DNA of 64,000 nt, taken from Thioalkalivibrio sp. ALJ24 (GTDB lineage Bacteria; Pseudomonadota; Gammaproteobacteria; Ectothiorhodospirales; Ectothiorhodospiraceae). The position numbers and the translations under genes are program-made. This document shows, one piece after another, positions 8,979 through 62,192 of the stretch (its first letter is position 1; every line of letters begins with the position of its first letter). The notes beneath the pieces are model-generated. The model worked only from the letters and a program-made list of their open reading frames with translations, was not told the origin of the DNA and did not search any database. The stretch spans positions 151,801-215,800 of the forward strand of contig NZ_KB898726.1 in the NCBI RefSeq assembly GCF_000377785.1, in the 5' to 3' direction.

Positions 8979-10208
8979 ATGGCCGAATTCACCGGCCCGC
9001 GTCCCCTGCTCCCGTTGTCGACCGGCAGCGAAGGTTCGCGCAGCCCCGGCGCCGCACGCGACCCCTTGCTGGCCGTGGGCCAGCGTATGGAGATCCGCAT
9101 GATCGAGCGCCTGGCGGACGGCAACGTACGCCTGCAGCTGCCGGCCGGCGGCGGCGCGGGCGCCGAGCGGGCCGAACGCACCGCTGTGATGGTGGCGCGC
9201 CTGGCCGGGGCGATATCCGAGGCGCTGGCGGCACGCAGCGAGGCCGGACAGCGCCTGATGGCCGAGATCACCCGCACTTCGCCATCGCTGGAGGTTCGAC
9301 TGCTGCCCTCGCCCGGCAGCGCGCCCGGCGCCGGTAGCGCCGGTTCGAGTTCGGCTACCGATGGCGATCGCCTGTCCGCCCTGCTGCGCCAGACGCTCCC
9401 CGCCGCGCGTGCCCTGGGGCCGGTGCTGCAGGCCCTGTCCTCCGCCACACCTCCCGAGAACACCGCAAACACCGCGCGTGCGGAAACGGCCGCCTCGCGC
9501 ATCGACGCCCTGCTGCGCGCGCTGCCGGATGCCGCGCAGCTGACACGTCCCGACGGTCTGCAAAAGGCGACTCGCGGGTCCGGCCTTTGGATGGAATCAA
9601 TGCTGGCACAGACGGCCGTAGCCGGCAGTGGCGGCGCGGCCCCCGACCTCTCGGGCGATCTCAAGGCCCGGCTGCTGCGCGCCGCCGATGCGCTGCGCCA
9701 GATGGCCGCGGTCAACATCCAGCCGGGCGGCCCGCCCACGGGCGGCCCGGCCAGCGCCGGCGGTCTGCTGGAAGCCATGCTGGGCCGTCTGGCCAGCCTG
9801 CAGCTGCAGTCGGCAGGTGATGTCGGGGACCTGCAGCGCTGGTTCTTCGAACTCCCGTTTCGCACCCCGCAGGGGGTCCAGAGCCTGCATGGCGAGATCG
9901 AACAGGGACCCGGCTCCGGGGCACACGAGGAAGCCGGGGACTGGCGCTGCCGGCTGACCCTCGATCTGCCCGCGCTGGGCCCCACCCGCATCGTGCTGCA
10001 CTCACGCAGCGATCAACTGCACCTGCATTTTACCGCGGAACGCGCCGAAACCGTGGAACGCCTGAAGGGACATCAGTCCGAACTGCGAGAAAACCTGGCC
10101 GCGCGCGACCTCGAACCCGCCAGTGTGGCCGTGCGTCAGGGCTCGGTGGACCCCGACCCTCACGCCCGGCCGGAGCATGCGCACGGCATGCTGGACGAAC
10201 GCGCATGA
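8979..10208 (+). CDS. FliK-like hook-length control domain protein (second FliK paralogue)
   Basis: A 409-residue protein, mostly low-complexity and Ala/Gly/Arg-rich. Only the C-terminal ~120 residues look structured: LTLDLPALGPTRIVLHSRS, LHLHFTAERAETVERLKGH and ELRENLAARDLEPASVAV. These match the strand-helix pattern of the FliK C-terminal (Flg_hook) domain, including the region corresponding to LHPPxLGxVxV and the final LRExLxxxGLxxxxV. It overlaps the FhlB gene by 4 nt, so hook-length or export-switch function is likely. The true FliK is at 30.5 kb. The N-terminal half gives no family clue. The ATG at 8979 is the first with a plausible upstream GAG; the exact start is uncertain. Confidence 0.65.
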   Translation: MAEFTGPRPLLPLSTGSEGSRSPGAARDPLLAVGQRMEIRMIERLADGNVRLQLPAGGGAGAERAERTAVMVARLAGAISEALAARSEAGQRLMAEITRTSPSLEVRLLPSPGSAPGAGSAGSSSATDGDRLSALLRQTLPAARALGPVLQALSSATPPENTANTARAETAASRIDALLRALPDAAQLTRPDGLQKATRGSGLWMESMLAQTAVAGSGGAAPDLSGDLKARLLRAADALRQMAAVNIQPGGPPTGGPASAGGLLEAMLGRLASLQLQSAGDVGDLQRWFFELPFRTPQGVQSLHGEIEQGPGSGAHEEAGDWRCRLTLDLPALGPTRIVLHSRSDQLHLHFTAERAETVERLKGHQSELRENLAARDLEPASVAVRQGSVDPDPHARPEHAHGMLDERA

Positions 10209-22662: not shown

Positions 22663-24765
22663 TCACGCCGACTTCTTGTCTGCTTCATCCTGTCCCACCG
22701 TGGCTACGACCCGGATCCGTCGGTTGTCCGGGATCTCGGTGAATGCGAGGACGGTCAGGTTGCGCACCGCTCCCCGCAGCCAGCCGGCAATCCAGGACCG
22801 GATCTCCGGGGCCACTACCAGCACCGCCGGCTGTCCCGCTGCCTCCTGGCGCTGGGCGGCCTCGCCCACCGATCGCTGCAGCCTCTCGGCCAGACCCGGT
22901 TCCAGTCCGACAGTCTCGCCATTGCTGCCCTGCAGAGACTTATGCAAGAGCTGTTCCAGCGACGGATCGAGTGCGATCAGGGGCAGTTCTTCGTCCGGTC
23001 CCACCAGGTCCTGGACGATGGAGCGCGACAGCGCGACCCTTACGGCGGCGGTCAAAGTGCCGGGATCCTGACTCTTGGTACCCTCCTCTGCCAGGGTTTC
23101 GGCGATCGTGCGCAGATCGCGGATGGAGACCTGCTCGGCCAGCAGGTTCTGCAGGACCTTCAGGATCACGCTCAGCGAGAGGGTCTTCGGCACCAGGTTT
23201 TCCACCAGCTTGGGCGAACGCTGCGCCAGCTGGTCCAGCAGGTGCTGGGCCTCCTCGTGGCCGATCAGCCGGTGGGCGTTCTCGCGGAACACCTGCGACA
23301 GATGGGTGGCGATCACCGTGGATACGTCCACCACGGTGTAGCCGGCCCCCTGCGCCTGTTCGCGGTTCTCGGGGTCGATCCACAGGGCATCCAGATTGAA
23401 CGTCGGATCCTTCGTCGGCGTGCCCGGCACCTCGCCGAAGACCTCGCCCGGATTGATCGCCAGCTCCTTGTCCGGGAACACCTCCGCCTCGGCGACGGTG
23501 ACGCCCAGCAGGGCGATACGGTAGGTATTCGGGCTCAGCTCGAGGTTGTCGCGGATATGCACCGGCTGCAGCAGAAAACCCAGCTCCTGCGACAGCTTGC
23601 GGCGCACGCCCTTGATCCGCCCCATCAGCTGACCATCCTGAGTCCGGTCCACCAGCGGGATCAGGCGATAGCCGACCTCCAGCGAGACCAGGTCCACCGG
23701 CGGCACGTCGTCCCACGACAGCTCGCGGCTTTCCGGCGACGGCTCCTGCTGTTCCGCCTCCGGCAGGCGTTCCACCGCGGCGGAAGCCTCGCGCTGCCGC
23801 CGCGCCATCAGGTACCCACCTCCGGCCGCCATCGAGGCCAGACCAAGGAACACCGCGTTGGGCATGCCCGGGACCATGCCCAGCGAGGCGATGACACCGC
23901 CAACCACGTACAGCACGCGCGGCTTGGAGAACATCTGCCCCAGCACCTGCTGGCCCATGTCCTGGCTGGTGGATACGCGGGTCACGATGATGGCGGTGGC
24001 CGAGGACAGCACCAGCGACGGGATCTGCGCGACCAGGCCGTCGCCGATGGTCAGCAGCACATAGTTGGTGGCGGCGTCGCCGATGGACATGCCGTGCTGC
24101 AGCGCACCGATGCTGAGCCCACCGATGATGTTCACGAACAGGATAAGGATGCCGGCGATGGCGTCGCCGCGGACGAACTTCGAGGCCCCGTCCATCGAGC
24201 CGTAGAAGTCCGCCTCCTGAGCGATCTCGTCACGCCGCCGGCGGGCCTCCTCCTGGGTCAGCAGCCCGGCGTTGAGGTCGGCGTCGATCGCCATCTGCTT
24301 GCCGGGCATGGAGTCCAGGGTGAAGCGGGCACTGACCTCGGACACGCGCCCCGCGCCCTTGGTCACCACCACGAAGTTGATGATGATCAGGATCGCGAAC
24401 ACCACCAGGCCGACCGCGTAGTTGCCGCCGACCACAAAGTCGCCGAAGGCCTGGATCACCTGCCCGGCCGCGTCCGTGCCGGTATGGCCTTCCAGCAGTA
24501 TCACCCGGGTGGAGGCGATGTTCAGCGCCAGACGCAGCAGCGTGGCCACCAGCAGCACCGTGGGGAACACCGCGAACTCCAGCGGTCGCGGGGTATAGAC
24601 CGCGACCATGATGACCACCAGTGACAGCGCGATGTTGAAGGTGAACAGCACGTCCAGAGCGATGGGCGGCAGTGGCACCACCATCATCGCCAGCATCGCG
24701 ATCAGCAGCAGCGGCGCACCCAGCCCCCAGCGCCCCATACCGCTCAGGCGATCAAGGAAGGTCAT
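22663..24765 (-). CDS. flhA: Flagellar export gate protein FlhA
   Basis: 700 residues. About eight membrane helices occupy the first 330 residues (for example LLIAMLAMMVVPLPPIALDVLF and AVGLVVFAILIIINFVVVTKG). The family signature between helices 4 and 5, RFTLDSMPGKQMAIDADLNAG, carries the conserved charged residues of the proton-using loop. The cytoplasmic nonameric-ring domain runs from about residue 350. FlhA forms the export gate of the flagellar type III machine. Its ATG overlaps the flhB stop by 4 nt, so unlike Pseudomonas there is no room for a separate flhA promoter in an intergenic space. Confidence 0.97.
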   Translation of the reverse strand: MTFLDRLSGMGRWGLGAPLLLIAMLAMMVVPLPPIALDVLFTFNIALSLVVIMVAVYTPRPLEFAVFPTVLLVATLLRLALNIASTRVILLEGHTGTDAAGQVIQAFGDFVVGGNYAVGLVVFAILIIINFVVVTKGAGRVSEVSARFTLDSMPGKQMAIDADLNAGLLTQEEARRRRDEIAQEADFYGSMDGASKFVRGDAIAGILILFVNIIGGLSIGALQHGMSIGDAATNYVLLTIGDGLVAQIPSLVLSSATAIIVTRVSTSQDMGQQVLGQMFSKPRVLYVVGGVIASLGMVPGMPNAVFLGLASMAAGGGYLMARRQREASAAVERLPEAEQQEPSPESRELSWDDVPPVDLVSLEVGYRLIPLVDRTQDGQLMGRIKGVRRKLSQELGFLLQPVHIRDNLELSPNTYRIALLGVTVAEAEVFPDKELAINPGEVFGEVPGTPTKDPTFNLDALWIDPENREQAQGAGYTVVDVSTVIATHLSQVFRENAHRLIGHEEAQHLLDQLAQRSPKLVENLVPKTLSLSVILKVLQNLLAEQVSIRDLRTIAETLAEEGTKSQDPGTLTAAVRVALSRSIVQDLVGPDEELPLIALDPSLEQLLHKSLQGSNGETVGLEPGLAERLQRSVGEAAQRQEAAGQPAVLVVAPEIRSWIAGWLRGAVRNLTVLAFTEIPDNRRIRVVATVGQDEADKKSA

Positions 24766-28793: not shown

Positions 28794-29771
28794 CTATCGT
28801 TGGACGCGACCGGTGATCTTGATCGCGTTCTGGCCATTCGAAACCCCGAACTTGCCCCGCAGCAGCGGGATGTCTTCGACCTTCAGTGTGACCTCTTCGG
28901 GAAGCTCCACCGGGATGATGTCTCCGGGCTTGATATCCAGCAGTTCCTGTACCGTGACTTCGGCCTGGGTCAGTTCGGAGGTGACCTCGACATCGGCGAA
29001 CTGCACCTCTTCGCGCAGGGCGTTCATCCAGCGCTGGTCCACGTCGGAGCGATCCGACTGGATGCCGGTGTCCAGCTGTTCGCGAATCGGCTCGATCATC
29101 GAGTACGGGAGGGTCACGTGCAGGTTGCCGCCGCCACCGTCCAGTTCGATGTGGAACTCGCTGATCACGACGATCTCGGTGGGGCTGACGATGTTGGCGA
29201 ACTGGGGATTCACCTCCGAGTTGAGGAACTCGAAATTGATGTCCATCACCGGTTCCCAGGCCTTGGTCATGTCCTCGAATGCGCCCTCGAGGATGCTGTG
29301 CACCACGCGCATCTCCATCGGTGTGAAGTCACGTCCCTCGATGCGGGTGTAGAAGCGTCCGTCGCCGCCGAAGAAGTTGTCCACCAGTATGAACACCAGC
29401 TTGGGGTCGAACACGAACAGCCCGGTACCATGCAGCGGATGCGCACGCACCAGATTCAGACTGGTGGGTACGAACAGGGAGTGCATGTATTCGGAAAACT
29501 TGGTCAGCCGGGTCCCGGCCACCGAGATCTCGGCGGATCGCCGCAGCATGTTGAACAGCCGCACGCGCAGGTGCCGGGCAAAACGCTCGTTGATCATCTC
29601 GAGCGTGGGCATGCGCCCGCGCACGATGCGATCCTGGGTGGCGAAATTGAACTCGCGCGCCTGGCCGTCGTGGGGAAACTCTTCCTCTTCGGTCTCGACG
29701 TCGCCGGAATCGACGCCGTGCAGCAGCGCGTCGATCTCGTCCTGGCTCAGAATGTCGGTCTGCTGTGCCAT
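28794..29771 (-). CDS. fliM: Flagellar motor switch protein FliM
   Basis: 325 residues. The N-terminal CheY-P-binding peptide is DILSQDEIDALLHGVD (residues 5-20). The middle CheC-like domain contains MLRRSAEISVAGTRLTKFSEY, LFVFDPKLVFILVDNFFGG and FTPMEMRVVHSILEGAFEDM. The C-terminal SpoA domain ends LLRGKFGVSNGQNAIKITG. It is the C-ring subunit that receives the CheY signal. It lies 9 nt downstream of fliL in the sigma-54-driven fliL operon. Confidence 0.97.
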   Translation of the reverse strand: MAQQTDILSQDEIDALLHGVDSGDVETEEEEFPHDGQAREFNFATQDRIVRGRMPTLEMINERFARHLRVRLFNMLRRSAEISVAGTRLTKFSEYMHSLFVPTSLNLVRAHPLHGTGLFVFDPKLVFILVDNFFGGDGRFYTRIEGRDFTPMEMRVVHSILEGAFEDMTKAWEPVMDINFEFLNSEVNPQFANIVSPTEIVVISEFHIELDGGGGNLHVTLPYSMIEPIREQLDTGIQSDRSDVDQRWMNALREEVQFADVEVTSELTQAEVTVQELLDIKPGDIIPVELPEEVTLKVEDIPLLRGKFGVSNGQNAIKITGRVQR

Positions 29772-44839: not shown

Positions 44840-45201
44840 GGGGGCGACCTGGATTCGACGCGGGTCGCAAAACCTGAGGTGCATGCCGAGGATGTAGTGA
44901 GCCTCGTAAAAATCACTGCAAAAAAATAGTTGCCAACGACGACAACTACGCACTCGCCGCTTAAAACCCGGTAGGGTGCCGTCCGACTGGAGCCGTGCTT
45001 GTGCGTCCAGTATCGGGCGTCGACTCTCACAAGCTCGCGGTGAAGCGTGCCCGGCGCGGATCCGTTAAAACTCAACCGGGATCGCCAGTCGTCTTCCCTG
45101 CCTGTCGGGTAGCGGCTGGTTAAACGCAAAGACAGGATAAGCATGTAGAGCCGAGGGCGGAGGGCCTGCGGACGCGGGTTCGATTCCCGCCGCCTCCACC
45201 A
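44840..45201 (+). ncRNA. ssrA: Transfer-messenger RNA (tmRNA)
   Basis: The 5' end GGGGGCGACCTGGATTCGACG and the 3' end with a T-arm (GGTTCGATTCCCGCC) and CGCCTCCACCA pair as a 7-bp tRNA-like acceptor stem. The tag frame runs from GCC at 44932 to TAA at 44962-44964 and encodes [10 protein letters not shown]. This is one residue different from the E. coli tag (ANDENYALAA) and keeps the ALAA protease signal. It rescues stalled ribosomes with SmpB. It is divergent from purL and followed by an intrinsic terminator. Confidence 0.97.
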
Positions 45202-46941: not shown

Positions 46942-48675
46942 TCAGCGCGCCATGCCGGGATCGTCCTCCACGTTCTTCACCTTCGGCAGGTACGGCTGCC
47001 CCACCGACACGGTTTCCTTGTCACGCAGCCAGTCGGCAACGATCTCCCAGACCGGTTCGGTGTCGTGCGGCTCGTGGACATCGGCCCAGCCCGCCACCAC
47101 GTAGTTGCGGTCCGGATCCAGGGGCTCGCCGTTGATCTCCACGTCGGTGATGCGCTCGCCCATCGACTTGTGCGGGTCGATCGTGTAGGTGATGCCACCG
47201 GTACGCACCATGTCGCCGCCGCGGTGTCGGAACGGATCCTCGTTGAAGATCGAGTTCGCGACGTCTTCCATCGCGTTCTTCAGCTGGGCCCCGGTCATCT
47301 CGTTGCGGGTGGTCTCGGAATAAGTGGTCGCGGTCTGACTCATCAGCTCCTCGAAGGTGATCGGCTGGCCCGGCAGCACGCTGATACCCCAGCGGAAGCC
47401 CGGCGACAGCGCCACTTCGGCGTCCATGCGCTCCATCATCGCCTCGAGGATGATCTCGTCGAAGGTGCCGTTGAAGTTGCCGCGGCGATAGAGCAGGTCG
47501 TCCGTCACCGCCAGCTCTTCCATAAGCTTGTCCTCGTACGGCTTGCGCACCTCCTTGATGTGCGCCTCCATCTCCTCGTCGGGCTCCAGCAGGTTGGAGA
47601 ACACCGGCAGCATCTTGAAGCGGTAGTCCTTCACGCCGCTATCATTCACATCCAGATCCAGCACGCCAAGGAACTTGCCGTTGGAACCCGCGTTGGTCAC
47701 CAGAGTACGTTCGCCGGCGGCGTTCTCGATTTCCAGCGCACCCGGGATCGCGTCGTGGGTGTGGCCACCCATGATCACGTCGACGTCGCGCAGGCGACGG
47801 GCCATCTCGATATCCGTGACCATTCCGTTGTGCGACAGGATGGCGACGACCTTGGCGCCCTTCTCCCGCACCTCGTCGATCATCTGCTGCGCTTTCTCTT
47901 CACGGATCCCGAAGGACCAGTCCGGGAACATGTAGCTCGGATTCGCCACCGAGGTGTAGGGGAAGGCCTGGCCTATGATCGCCACCGGGACCCCGTTCAT
48001 CTCGCGGATGGTGTAGGGCTCGAACACCCGGTCACCCCAGTCAGCATCCTCGACGTTTTGTGCGACGAAATCGATGCCGTTGGGCTTGAAGTCGTTCTCG
48101 ATGACCTCCATGAGCCGCTCGTCACCGAAGGTGAACTCCCAGTGACCGGTCATCACGTCCACGCCCAGCAGCTTCTGCGCGTCGACCATGTCCTGCGCAC
48201 CGCTCCACAGCGAGACTGCGGACCCCTGCCAGGTATCACCGCCGTCCAGCAGCAGCGAGTTCGGGCGATCGGCACGCAGCTTCTTAACCAGTGTCGACAG
48301 GTGGGCAAAACCACCGACCCGGCCGTATTTCTCCGCCGCCTCGGCAAAATCGATGTAGGTCAGCGCGTGCGCCTCGGGGGTGCCCTTCTCGACCCCGAAG
48401 TGTTCCAGCAGGGCCTCGCCGGCCAGAACCGGCGGCTTGCCCTTCATGTCCCCCACGCCGATGTTGACGTCCGGCTCGCGGAAATACACCGGCATCAGCT
48501 GCGCGTGGCAGTCGGTGTAGTGCAGCAGCGACACGTTGCCGAACGGCTTGATGTCGTAAAAATCCGACGGCGCGCGCTGCCAGTTGATGCTCTCGCCCGC
48601 CCAGGCGGTGCCGGTCAGACCGGCCGCCCCGGCCGCCACCATGACTTCTAGGAATTCCCTCCGCGTGAGGTTCAT
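46942..48675 (-). CDS. soxB: Thiosulfohydrolase SoxB
   Basis: 577 residues from the ATG at 48675, with AGGAG 7 nt upstream. A Tat signal peptide (LTRREFLEVMVAAGAAGLTG, ending AWA) precedes a metallophosphoesterase domain with LLHYTDCHAQLMPVYFREP, LLLDGGDTWQGSAVSLWSG, VGHWEFTFG-like TGHWEFTFGDERL and HNGMVTDIEMA/MGGHTHDAIPG metal ligands. A 5'-nucleotidase C-domain follows. The YFREP and DGGDTWQGS context distinguishes SoxB from ordinary 5'-nucleotidases. It is the dimanganese enzyme that hydrolyses sulfate from SoxY-bound sulfur intermediates in the periplasm. No soxXYZA genes flank it. Confidence 0.93.
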   Translation of the reverse strand: MNLTRREFLEVMVAAGAAGLTGTAWAGESINWQRAPSDFYDIKPFGNVSLLHYTDCHAQLMPVYFREPDVNIGVGDMKGKPPVLAGEALLEHFGVEKGTPEAHALTYIDFAEAAEKYGRVGGFAHLSTLVKKLRADRPNSLLLDGGDTWQGSAVSLWSGAQDMVDAQKLLGVDVMTGHWEFTFGDERLMEVIENDFKPNGIDFVAQNVEDADWGDRVFEPYTIREMNGVPVAIIGQAFPYTSVANPSYMFPDWSFGIREEKAQQMIDEVREKGAKVVAILSHNGMVTDIEMARRLRDVDVIMGGHTHDAIPGALEIENAAGERTLVTNAGSNGKFLGVLDLDVNDSGVKDYRFKMLPVFSNLLEPDEEMEAHIKEVRKPYEDKLMEELAVTDDLLYRRGNFNGTFDEIILEAMMERMDAEVALSPGFRWGISVLPGQPITFEELMSQTATTYSETTRNEMTGAQLKNAMEDVANSIFNEDPFRHRGGDMVRTGGITYTIDPHKSMGERITDVEINGEPLDPDRNYVVAGWADVHEPHDTEPVWEIVADWLRDKETVSVGQPYLPKVKNVEDDPGMAR

Positions 48676-48846: not shown

Positions 48847-48876
48847 AAAAAAGGCCCCTCCCGAACGGCAGGGGCC
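48847..48876 (-). terminator. Intrinsic terminator in the soxB-tRNA gap
   Basis: On the minus strand GGCCCCT (48876-48870), a 10-base loop, AGGGGCC (48859-48853) and six T (48852-48847). No annotated gene precedes it on this strand, which is the main reason to suspect a small RNA. Confidence 0.85.
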
Positions 48877-48957
48877 AATACGCGACATACACCACTCAAC
48901 GGCTACCCGATCGAACGCGGCATGCCCCGTGGTCGACGGCACCGATCGAAGCTGGCA
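48847..48957 (-). ncRNA. Candidate FNR-regulated small RNA
   Basis: This is a roughly 110-nt transcript predicted from signals alone. An FNR-type box (48991-49004) and a -10 element TACAGT (48969-48964) would start transcription near 48957, and an intrinsic terminator ends it at 48847-48876. No ORF with a ribosome-binding site lies inside, and the neighbouring soxB is on the far side of the terminator. Its sequence does not resemble the FnrS or PhrS RNAs I know. Expression is unproven; the terminator is the strongest evidence. Confidence 0.4.
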
Positions 48958-48963
48958 CCTCCG

Positions 48964-49004
48964 ACTGTAGCTGGCGACACAAACGAGATTGTGATGCAGA
49001 TCAA
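48964..49004 (-). promoter_or_regulatory. FNR/Anr-type box and -10 element
   Basis: The minus strand reads TTGATCTGCATCAC (49004-48991) against TTGAT-N4-ATCAA: 9 of 10 positions. TACAGT follows at 48969-48964. The box centre is about 40.5 bases before the predicted start at 48957, the class II activator spacing. A CRP site is less likely because one half-site (TCAAT) is poor. Confidence 0.5.
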
Positions 49005-49124: not shown

Positions 49125-49215
49125 GGAGAGGTGGCCGAGCGGTCGAAGGCGCACGCCTGGAAAGTGTGTATACGGTAACCCCGTATCGAGGGTTCGAATC
49201 CCTCCCTCTCCGCCA
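49125..49215 (+). tRNA. tRNA-Ser (anticodon GGA)
   Basis: A 91-base class II tRNA: acceptor GGAGAGG pairs with CCTCTCC, followed by discriminator G and encoded CCA. The anticodon loop CTGGAAA gives GGA, reading UCC/UCU serine codons. A long variable arm (TGTGTATACGGTAACCCCGTA region) and the T-loop GGTTCGAATCC are present. A terminator follows, and the next genes form a polysaccharide module, so this tRNA is a possible island boundary. No duplicated 3' end is seen in the window. Confidence 0.95.
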
Positions 49216-61502: not shown

Positions 61503-62192
61503 ATGGCTGTTTCGATTCTGCTGGTGGAAGACGACCTCGCGATCCGCGAGATGCTCCGCCGGCCCTTGCAGAAAGCCGGGTACCAACTGCACGAGGCCGG
61601 CGACATCGCCAGCGCCCGCACCGCGCTGCTGGAAGACCCGCCGGACCTGGTCCTGCTGGACTGGATGCTCCCCGACATGACCGGCCTGGAATGGGCCCGC
61701 ACGCTCAAGGCCAGTCCGGTGACCCGGGACATCCCGGTCATCATGCTCACCGCCCGCGGCGAAGAAGAGGACCGCGTACGCGGACTGGACGTGGGCGCCG
61801 ACGACTACATCGTCAAGCCGTTTTCCCCGCGCGAGCTGGTCGCCCGGCTGAAGGCCGTGCTGCGACGCACCACGCCCACCAGCGCCGAGGAGCCGGTGGA
61901 GCTCTCCGGCCTGCGCCTGGACCCGCTCTCCCACCGTGTGAGCGGCCACGGCGAGGCCATTCCGCTGGGGCCCACCGAATACAACCTGCTGCATTTCTTC
62001 ATGACGCATCCGGACCGGGTCTTTACCCGCGAACAGCTGCTGGACAAGGTCTGGGGCACCAACGTGTACGTCGAGGAGCGTACCGTGGACGTGCACATCC
62101 GCCGCCTGCGCAAGGCGCTTGCCGACACCGGCCACGACGGCCTGGTGCAGACCGTACGCGGTACCGGGTATCGTTTCTCCGACAAGGACTGA
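61503..62192 (+). CDS. phoB: Phosphate regulon response regulator PhoB
   Basis: 229 residues, the same length as E. coli PhoB. The receiver domain has the acidic residues of [14 protein letters not shown], phosphoacceptor D53 ([17 protein letters not shown]), the threonine of [19 protein letters not shown] and lysine in [17 protein letters not shown]. The OmpR-type winged helix ends in [19 protein letters not shown] and [12 protein letters not shown]. It activates phosphate-starvation genes through the Pho boxes in this window. It is 12 nt from phoR. Confidence 0.97.

Follow-up and report, generated by a model that had tools for sequence, protein, structure and literature searches.

The window analysed here is a stretch of 64,000 nucleotides from Thioalkalivibrio sp. 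ALJ24 in which soxB and a divergently transcribed tRNA-Ser gene enclose an intergenic interval with the elements of a compact transcription unit (Table 1). Between 49004 and 48847, read in the minus-strand direction, this interval consists of an FNR-type box (TTGATCTGCATCAC), a spacer of 21 nt, the hexamer TACAGT and a further stretch of about 117 nt, 111 of which make up the predicted RNA, with a GC-rich hairpin and six T. The hairpin, GGCCCCUGCCGUUCGGGAGGGGCC, and its U6 tract terminate at 48847, and the centre of the box is located approximately 40.5 nt upstream of the inferred start near 48957. A preliminary description, made from the letters alone, had proposed a minus-strand transcript of about 110 nt bounded by an FNR-type box, a correctly spaced -10 element and a strong intrinsic terminator. 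All of these are present: the box matches at 9 of 10 positions, TACAGT follows at the distance of a class II promoter, and the hairpin with its U-tract ends where proposed.

Table 1. Features of the soxB-proximal locus, in window coordinates.
Feature	Position	Strand	Remarks
FNR/Anr box TTGATCTGCATCAC	48991..49004	minus	9/10 positions; at orthologous loci 10/10 in 13, 9/10 in 2
-10 element TACAGT	48964..48969	minus	begins 21 nt past the box; 4/6 matches to TATAAT
Predicted small RNA, about 111 nt	48847..48957	minus	start inferred from class II spacing
Invariant segment GGUGUAUGUCGCGU, 14 nt, proposed pairing region	48880..48893	minus	identical in 15/15
Intrinsic terminator, hairpin + U6	48847..48876	minus	fold; compensatory changes in relatives
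soxB, next downstream gene	46942..48675	minus	start 171 nt past terminator; TIGR04486, 816.7 bits (cut-off 550)
tRNA-Ser(GGA), divergent upstream neighbour	49125..49215	plus	among 15 loci, in the window and G007 only

The 64 kb contain three FNR boxes with no more than one mismatch, compared with 0.40 expected from shuffling. The other two, each matching 9/10 positions (24377-24390 and 29236-29249), lie inside long reading frames (22663-24765 and 28794-29771) that we take to be the flagellar genes flhA and fliM, and are probably chance occurrences. A 119-nt stretch spanning the predicted RNA folds slightly more stably than its shuffles, with a z score of -2.07 and 4 of 200 shuffled versions folding equally well. 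A consensus scanner run on the window called neither a promoter nor a terminator at 48847-49004: the program requires a -35 element, with which class II sites can dispense, and the stem of the terminator contains an internal mismatch. The sole terminator-like site it listed is a different one (48727-48710), with 0.8 expected by chance. Because the scanner lists neither element, the single sequence taken alone is only suggestive. A search of the window with Rfam matched a tmRNA and the tRNA-Ser, with no match over the interval of the small RNA. The tmRNA gene (44840-45201) is ordinary, and two tRNA genes called by ARAGORN, tRNA-Ala(CGC) at 9278-9369 and tRNA-Glu(TTC) at 61791-61888, do not reach the gathering score of the Rfam tRNA model and are probably false.

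We compared the locus across the genome that contains the window (G000) and 29 further genomes of the genus. Orthologues of the window SoxB with 77-88% identity are encoded in 14 of these 29, and a more distant one (72%) in G016. Among the remaining 14 genomes, 13 contain only a second SoxB type (54-61% identity) or fragments, and G028 gave no match. In 14 of the 30 genomes, two complete SoxB types occur together, with about 57% identity to each other. The small RNA accompanies only the window type, which is also the only type present in G000. At 15 of the 16 loci with a soxB at least 72% identical to that of the window, the FNR box, a TAnnnT element, the invariant segment and the terminator all precede soxB; the full set is missing only before the 72% orthologue of G016. 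Conservation of box and terminator in related genomes, which the preliminary description had named as a check, thus holds at 15 of 16 loci. The box is perfect everywhere except in the window and G007. TAnnnT begins 21-22 nt past the box at all 15 loci with three or four of six matches to TATAAT, these calls being the best candidates that a script found within a small range and sharing one alignment column. From box centre to inferred start the distance is 40.5-41.5 nt throughout, and the predicted RNA measures 108-127 nt across the 15 genomes. The exact segment GGTGTATGTCGCGTNTTGGCC, followed by the terminator, is likewise found at every one of these loci, and the sequence between the -10 element and the segment is divergent, with insertions and deletions. 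As box, -10 element, 14-nt segment and terminator recur at 15 orthologous loci amid such divergence, the element is far from a chance arrangement. From these sequence comparisons, the interval very probably represents a real small RNA gene, and it is highly likely that this gene is activated by FNR.

Outside these loci, the RNA was sought at several taxonomic depths. Of 47 genomes of the family, 15 contain the exact segment, and every one of these belongs to the genus; a 21-nt pattern holding GGUGUAUGUCGCGU has exact matches in 12 named records, each from Thioalkalivibrio, including T. halophilus HL17, T. versutus AL 2 and T. thiocyanoxidans ARh2. A covariance model searched against 369 genomes drawn from the class under strict filters, in which only G000 and G022 among the genomes listed are from the genus, matched five genomes and convincingly only these two; the matches in G273, G285 and G323 are terminators only. 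Further matches to the segment with two or three mismatches in G026, G027, G029 and G036 have neither box nor terminator as judged by eye. Since the exact segment and the convincing model matches are confined to the carrier genomes, the small RNA appears, as far as searched, to be limited to a single branch of this genus of soda-lake sulfur bacteria.

Proteins that such an RNA would call for are encoded in the genomes examined. A protein of G000 passes the Fnr model NCBIfam NF008365 (241 bits, cut-off 228), and the features of FNR, namely the C-x2-C-x5-C arrangement, a fourth cysteine (in VCAVP) and a recognition helix reading QETISRLF, are found in all 15 carriers; a scripted search did not show the pattern in the non-carrier G018. 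Hfq is encoded in all nine genomes of the genus that were tested, four of them carriers. The earlier proposal of an FNR-driven RNA analogous but unrelated to FnrS and PhrS is well supported by the conservation in 15 genomes, by the presence of FNR with its cysteines in the same 15, and by the lack of an Rfam match.

RNAalifold predicted three paired elements: a closing stem around the 5' domain, a mini-hairpin of 3 bp within the constant segment, and the terminator. In the closing stem and the terminator, 95.5% of the cells are paired, compared with 33-51% in slid versions, and two-sided changes occur in 22 cells compared with 7.7 in shuffles that ignore relatedness and are applied to a structure derived from the same alignment. 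Seven of the 22 fall at a single pair of the closing stem and 15 in the terminator; further pair types in these two elements are not above shuffles (13 versus 14.3). The closing stem is absent from the lowest-energy fold of the window RNA. In the predicted folds the invariant segment is partly free, with a mean unpaired fraction of 0.42 in the window and 0.53-0.70 in the other genomes. An AUG lies inside this segment, and the frame that it opens begins with M-S-R in all 15 genomes, as an mRNA for a small protein might. The shared residues, however, follow from the invariance of the bases, and this frame, the only one common to the 15 loci, stops after 10 codons in five of them and runs off the RNA in ten. 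No longer frame with a kept start and end is found among the 15 loci, and the insertion lengths in the 5' part are not divisible by three. A protein-coding function is therefore the least probable of the readings that we weighed, and the earlier statement that the interval contains no ORF is right in substance.

The genomic surroundings bear on two further readings. Downstream, all 15 loci have soxB in the same orientation, 171-253 nt past the terminator. The upstream gene differs: at 13 loci it encodes, on the same strand, a class I fructose-bisphosphate aldolase (one copy was checked with a profile), whose frame ends about 25-70 nt ahead of the FNR box. Of the placement between tRNA-Ser and soxB given in the preliminary description, the soxB side thus applies throughout and the tRNA-Ser side in only two of 15 loci. 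Because the downstream gene is constant and the upstream gene is not, the RNA can be said to stay with soxB. This constancy, kept although the upstream neighbour varies by clade, is what one would see if the element were a soxB 5' leader whose terminator is regulated, with signal-dependent read-through of an FNR-driven transcript into the gene. The spacer between terminator and soxB nevertheless contains no long conserved stretch at the 15 loci except near the ribosome site, contrary to what is asked of a riboswitch or attenuator. At five loci (L013, L014, L016, L018 and L019) the spacer includes an additional hairpin-like stretch, recognized by eye and followed in four of them by at least five T, which also counts against this reading, and we consider the leader function improbable. 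At the 13 aldolase loci no run of five T separates the aldolase frame from the box, so that the terminator could there also end the aldolase mRNA, and the RNA might be mainly the 3' end of that mRNA, with an independent transcript secondary to it. Yet the window and G007 have no aldolase at this place and keep box, segment and terminator, and box and -10 element are conserved at all 15 loci; a principal origin from the aldolase mRNA is accordingly very improbable.

For candidate partners of a stand-alone small RNA, we initially searched the 15 carrier genomes for the complement of the 14-nt segment, allowing at most one mismatch. This returned 35 places, 15 of them the RNA gene itself, and the 20 others do not constitute a genome-wide excess, as a reversed control pattern gave 24 in the same genomes. 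Of these 20, 14 and additionally L053 were read, and two more precede tpx by position. Five of the non-self matches, each with one mismatch, lie 21 nt upstream of the start codon of the thiol peroxidase gene tpx, just ahead of AGGAGG, in five thiocyanoxidans-type genomes. The gene was chosen via these five closely related genomes, and the other ten tpx leaders were read without further selection. All 15 leaders pair at the same place, strongly in 11 and weakly in four genomes. The predicted energies are -21.7 kcal/mol in the five genomes, -14.2 to -18.0 kcal/mol in eight versutus-type leaders, which carry ACGCGCCAUACAC or variants of it, and -19.6 kcal/mol in the window and G007, which have a different version of the site (ACGCGACGUGC) with two G-U pairs. 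The four weak leaders are versutus-type (-14.2 to -16.7 kcal/mol, within about 0.6-1.6 sd of the mean for unrelated leaders of G029) and include L113 and L117, whose site no longer has its 3' half. In members of the genus that do not carry the RNA, tpx leaders reach only -8.1 to -12.7 kcal/mol (8/8; L124, -9.2); for unrelated leaders, which were 20 nt longer, the means are -12.7 (sd 2.5) for G029 and -13.2 (sd 2.4) for G000. A supposed in-frame TGA in the tpx of several relatives proved, in the four that were read, to be the terminal stop codon of a somewhat shorter protein.

We assessed the match with permuted segments, a control that keeps composition only. In 3000 trials, permuted segments matched as well as the real one in 2.1% of cases for the versutus-type set, 0.23% for the window set and 0.1% for both of these clades, neither of which had served to select tpx; as the 15 genomes form only three clades, the independent evidence for tpx amounts to about two clades, which are not fully independent tests. 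With the five selected genomes included, 0.1% of 1000 permuted segments equalled the 15 leaders. The tpx leader ranks first among 191 orthologue pairs and first among 671 leaders in G029. In G000 it ranks tenth of 1009, nine other leaders pairing more strongly. These rankings cover called genes in sampled stretches that were partly picked to include tpx, an HdrB-like gene, a porin and fnr. Complements of 7-9 nt show no general excess in leaders. When the whole RNA and the tpx leader were co-folded freely, 13 of the 14 segment bases paired at the site and the terminator was kept, in both G000 and G029. On this evidence we judge it somewhat better than an even bet that tpx is a direct target of the small RNA.

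The same FNR-activated RNA could instead act on other genes, such as those for outer-membrane proteins or respiratory functions, with the tpx match arising by chance. It was a search that picked out tpx, and complements are no commoner than those of the reversed control. Candidates exist as well. Leaders of outer-membrane proteins that we take to be TorF-like, L165 (G000:C4:196000-198500) and one near G029:C1 ~203893, each have an 8-mer complementary to the segment roughly 30 nt ahead of the start, at a similar place, which makes the TorF-like porin a second candidate target. The leader of the HdrB-like gene keeps GACATCAGGAG in all 15 genomes and CGCGACAT in two, and ccoP-like leaders pair at -15.6 and -17.5, although this site, judged by eye, is probably within the end of the preceding gene. 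However, among the four leader sets assembled from all 15 genomes (tpx and, as matched controls, soxB, HdrB-like and fnr), only tpx exceeds permuted segments, and tpx also leads the orthologue pairs. We therefore regard a set of targets without tpx as a rather unlikely alternative.

Several individual candidates were rejected. The soxB leaders pair at a mean of -10.3 kcal/mol (-6.2 to -15.7), no better than permuted segments. For the HdrB-like gene an 8-bp match is present in the window and G007 only, and the 15 genomes together are not above permutation; the same holds for the 15 fnr leaders. The link to sulfur oxidation or denitrification raised in the preliminary description is thus unsupported, with soxB and HdrB-like leaders no better than permuted segments and tpx as the conserved partner that was found. 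Gapped patterns, composed of part of the complement, GGAG and ATG, yielded many, mostly coding-like matches for CGCGACAT and five for GACATACA, of which two fall on the RNA gene; neither pattern gave a leader common to all clades. As a separate observation, the HdrB-like leader (L212-L226) of all 15 carriers has kept GACATCAGGAGAAGCGTTATG immediately ahead of the gene start, and the sequence is different in the six RNA-less relatives that were read.

Comparison with described RNAs places the candidate outside the families of Rfam. None of the Rfam 15 covariance models reached its gathering score for the small RNA, and five sub-threshold matches (E 0.34 to 6) all fall over the terminator, none of them to FnrS. 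PhrS and PaiI of Pseudomonas aeruginosa are likewise small RNAs linked to anaerobiosis, to which the Thioalkalivibrio RNA has no Rfam match. PhrS is under ANR control. PaiI is anaerobically induced in a NarXL-dependent manner (PMC5703892). Most FNR-activated promoters work at the class II position, and the FNR site of E. coli FnrS is tabulated at -42.5 (PMC3688515). FnrS of E. coli and other enterobacteria resembles what is predicted for our candidate in being a small RNA with a class II FNR promoter, and it lowers target mRNAs without oxygen (PMC3688515). It shares no sequence relation detectable by Rfam with the Thioalkalivibrio RNA, which differs further in its constant segment beside the terminator and its variable 5' part. 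The word tpx is absent from the main text of PMC3688515, which thus gives no sign of FnrS acting on this gene. In Neisseria gonorrhoeae, a member of another bacterial class, FnrS is FNR-activated and anaerobically induced, with a class II site and a rho-independent terminator, and its targets are left open in PMC3032703; here, too, the Thioalkalivibrio RNA is without an Rfam match. A precedent for small-RNA control of tpx is provided by the oxygen-linked ArcZ of Salmonella and Erwinia, which represses tpx post-transcriptionally (PMC6895013). Our candidate, which again has no Rfam match to it, would be induced on oxygen loss, whereas ArcZ is produced while oxygen is abundant, controlled by an oxygen-responsive two-component system (PMC11331407).

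Full-text literature searches, which for PMC11109978 covered the main text, found no description of the soxB-adjacent RNA, nor of an oxygen-tied small RNA in haloalkaliphilic sulfur oxidizers. The main text of that study, an intergenic structured-RNA screen of a Thioalkalivibrio genome, does not mention soxB, sox or FNR, and its authors state that their method was not designed for comprehensive small-RNA identification (PMC11109978). The parts consulted of a Thioalkalivibrio RNA-seq study name RtT, SRP, RNase P and tmRNA as non-coding RNAs, and not the one next to soxB (PMC8092127). Judging from sequence and from these comparisons, we consider the Thioalkalivibrio element a new, lineage-restricted small RNA of the FNR type, which would work like FnrS outside that sequence family.

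The reading that we favour, with a probability of roughly 60%, is a stand-alone, trans-acting, FNR-activated small RNA with tpx as its best-supported partner. It combines a conserved anatomy, the genes for FNR and Hfq and the complementarity to tpx, all of which are observed. When oxygen falls, the iron-sulfur sensor FNR would bind the box centred about 41 nt upstream of the start and switch on the class II promoter. The transcript, presumably 110-127 nt long, would comprise a folded, fast-evolving 5' domain, the invariant GGUGUAUGUCGCGU and the terminator hairpin with its U-tail. Its 14-nt segment, possibly with the help of Hfq, would then pair with mRNA leaders, the best-supported being that of tpx just upstream of the ribosome-binding site. 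The position of this pairing site suggests repression rather than activation, such that synthesis of the thiol peroxidase would drop as peroxide formation stops. A fuller version is tentative and, taken as a whole, doubtful: the invariant segment, directly before the terminator and partly held in the mini-hairpin, may co-evolve with the tpx leader to lower peroxide defence on oxygen loss, further targets may include TorF-like porins, and the RNA may be kept next to soxB so that its gain and loss travel with that gene copy.

Haloalkaliphilic sulfur oxidizers are used in gas desulfurization under low oxygen. With one RNA, one promoter, one 14-nt segment and one leading target, the locus offers a ready test case. 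The candidate also adds to the pattern of bacteria that, though unrelated, possess FNR-driven RNAs of their own. If the proposed function is true, chemolithotrophic sulfur oxidizers would reduce their defence against peroxide on the loss of oxygen through a post-transcriptional switch.
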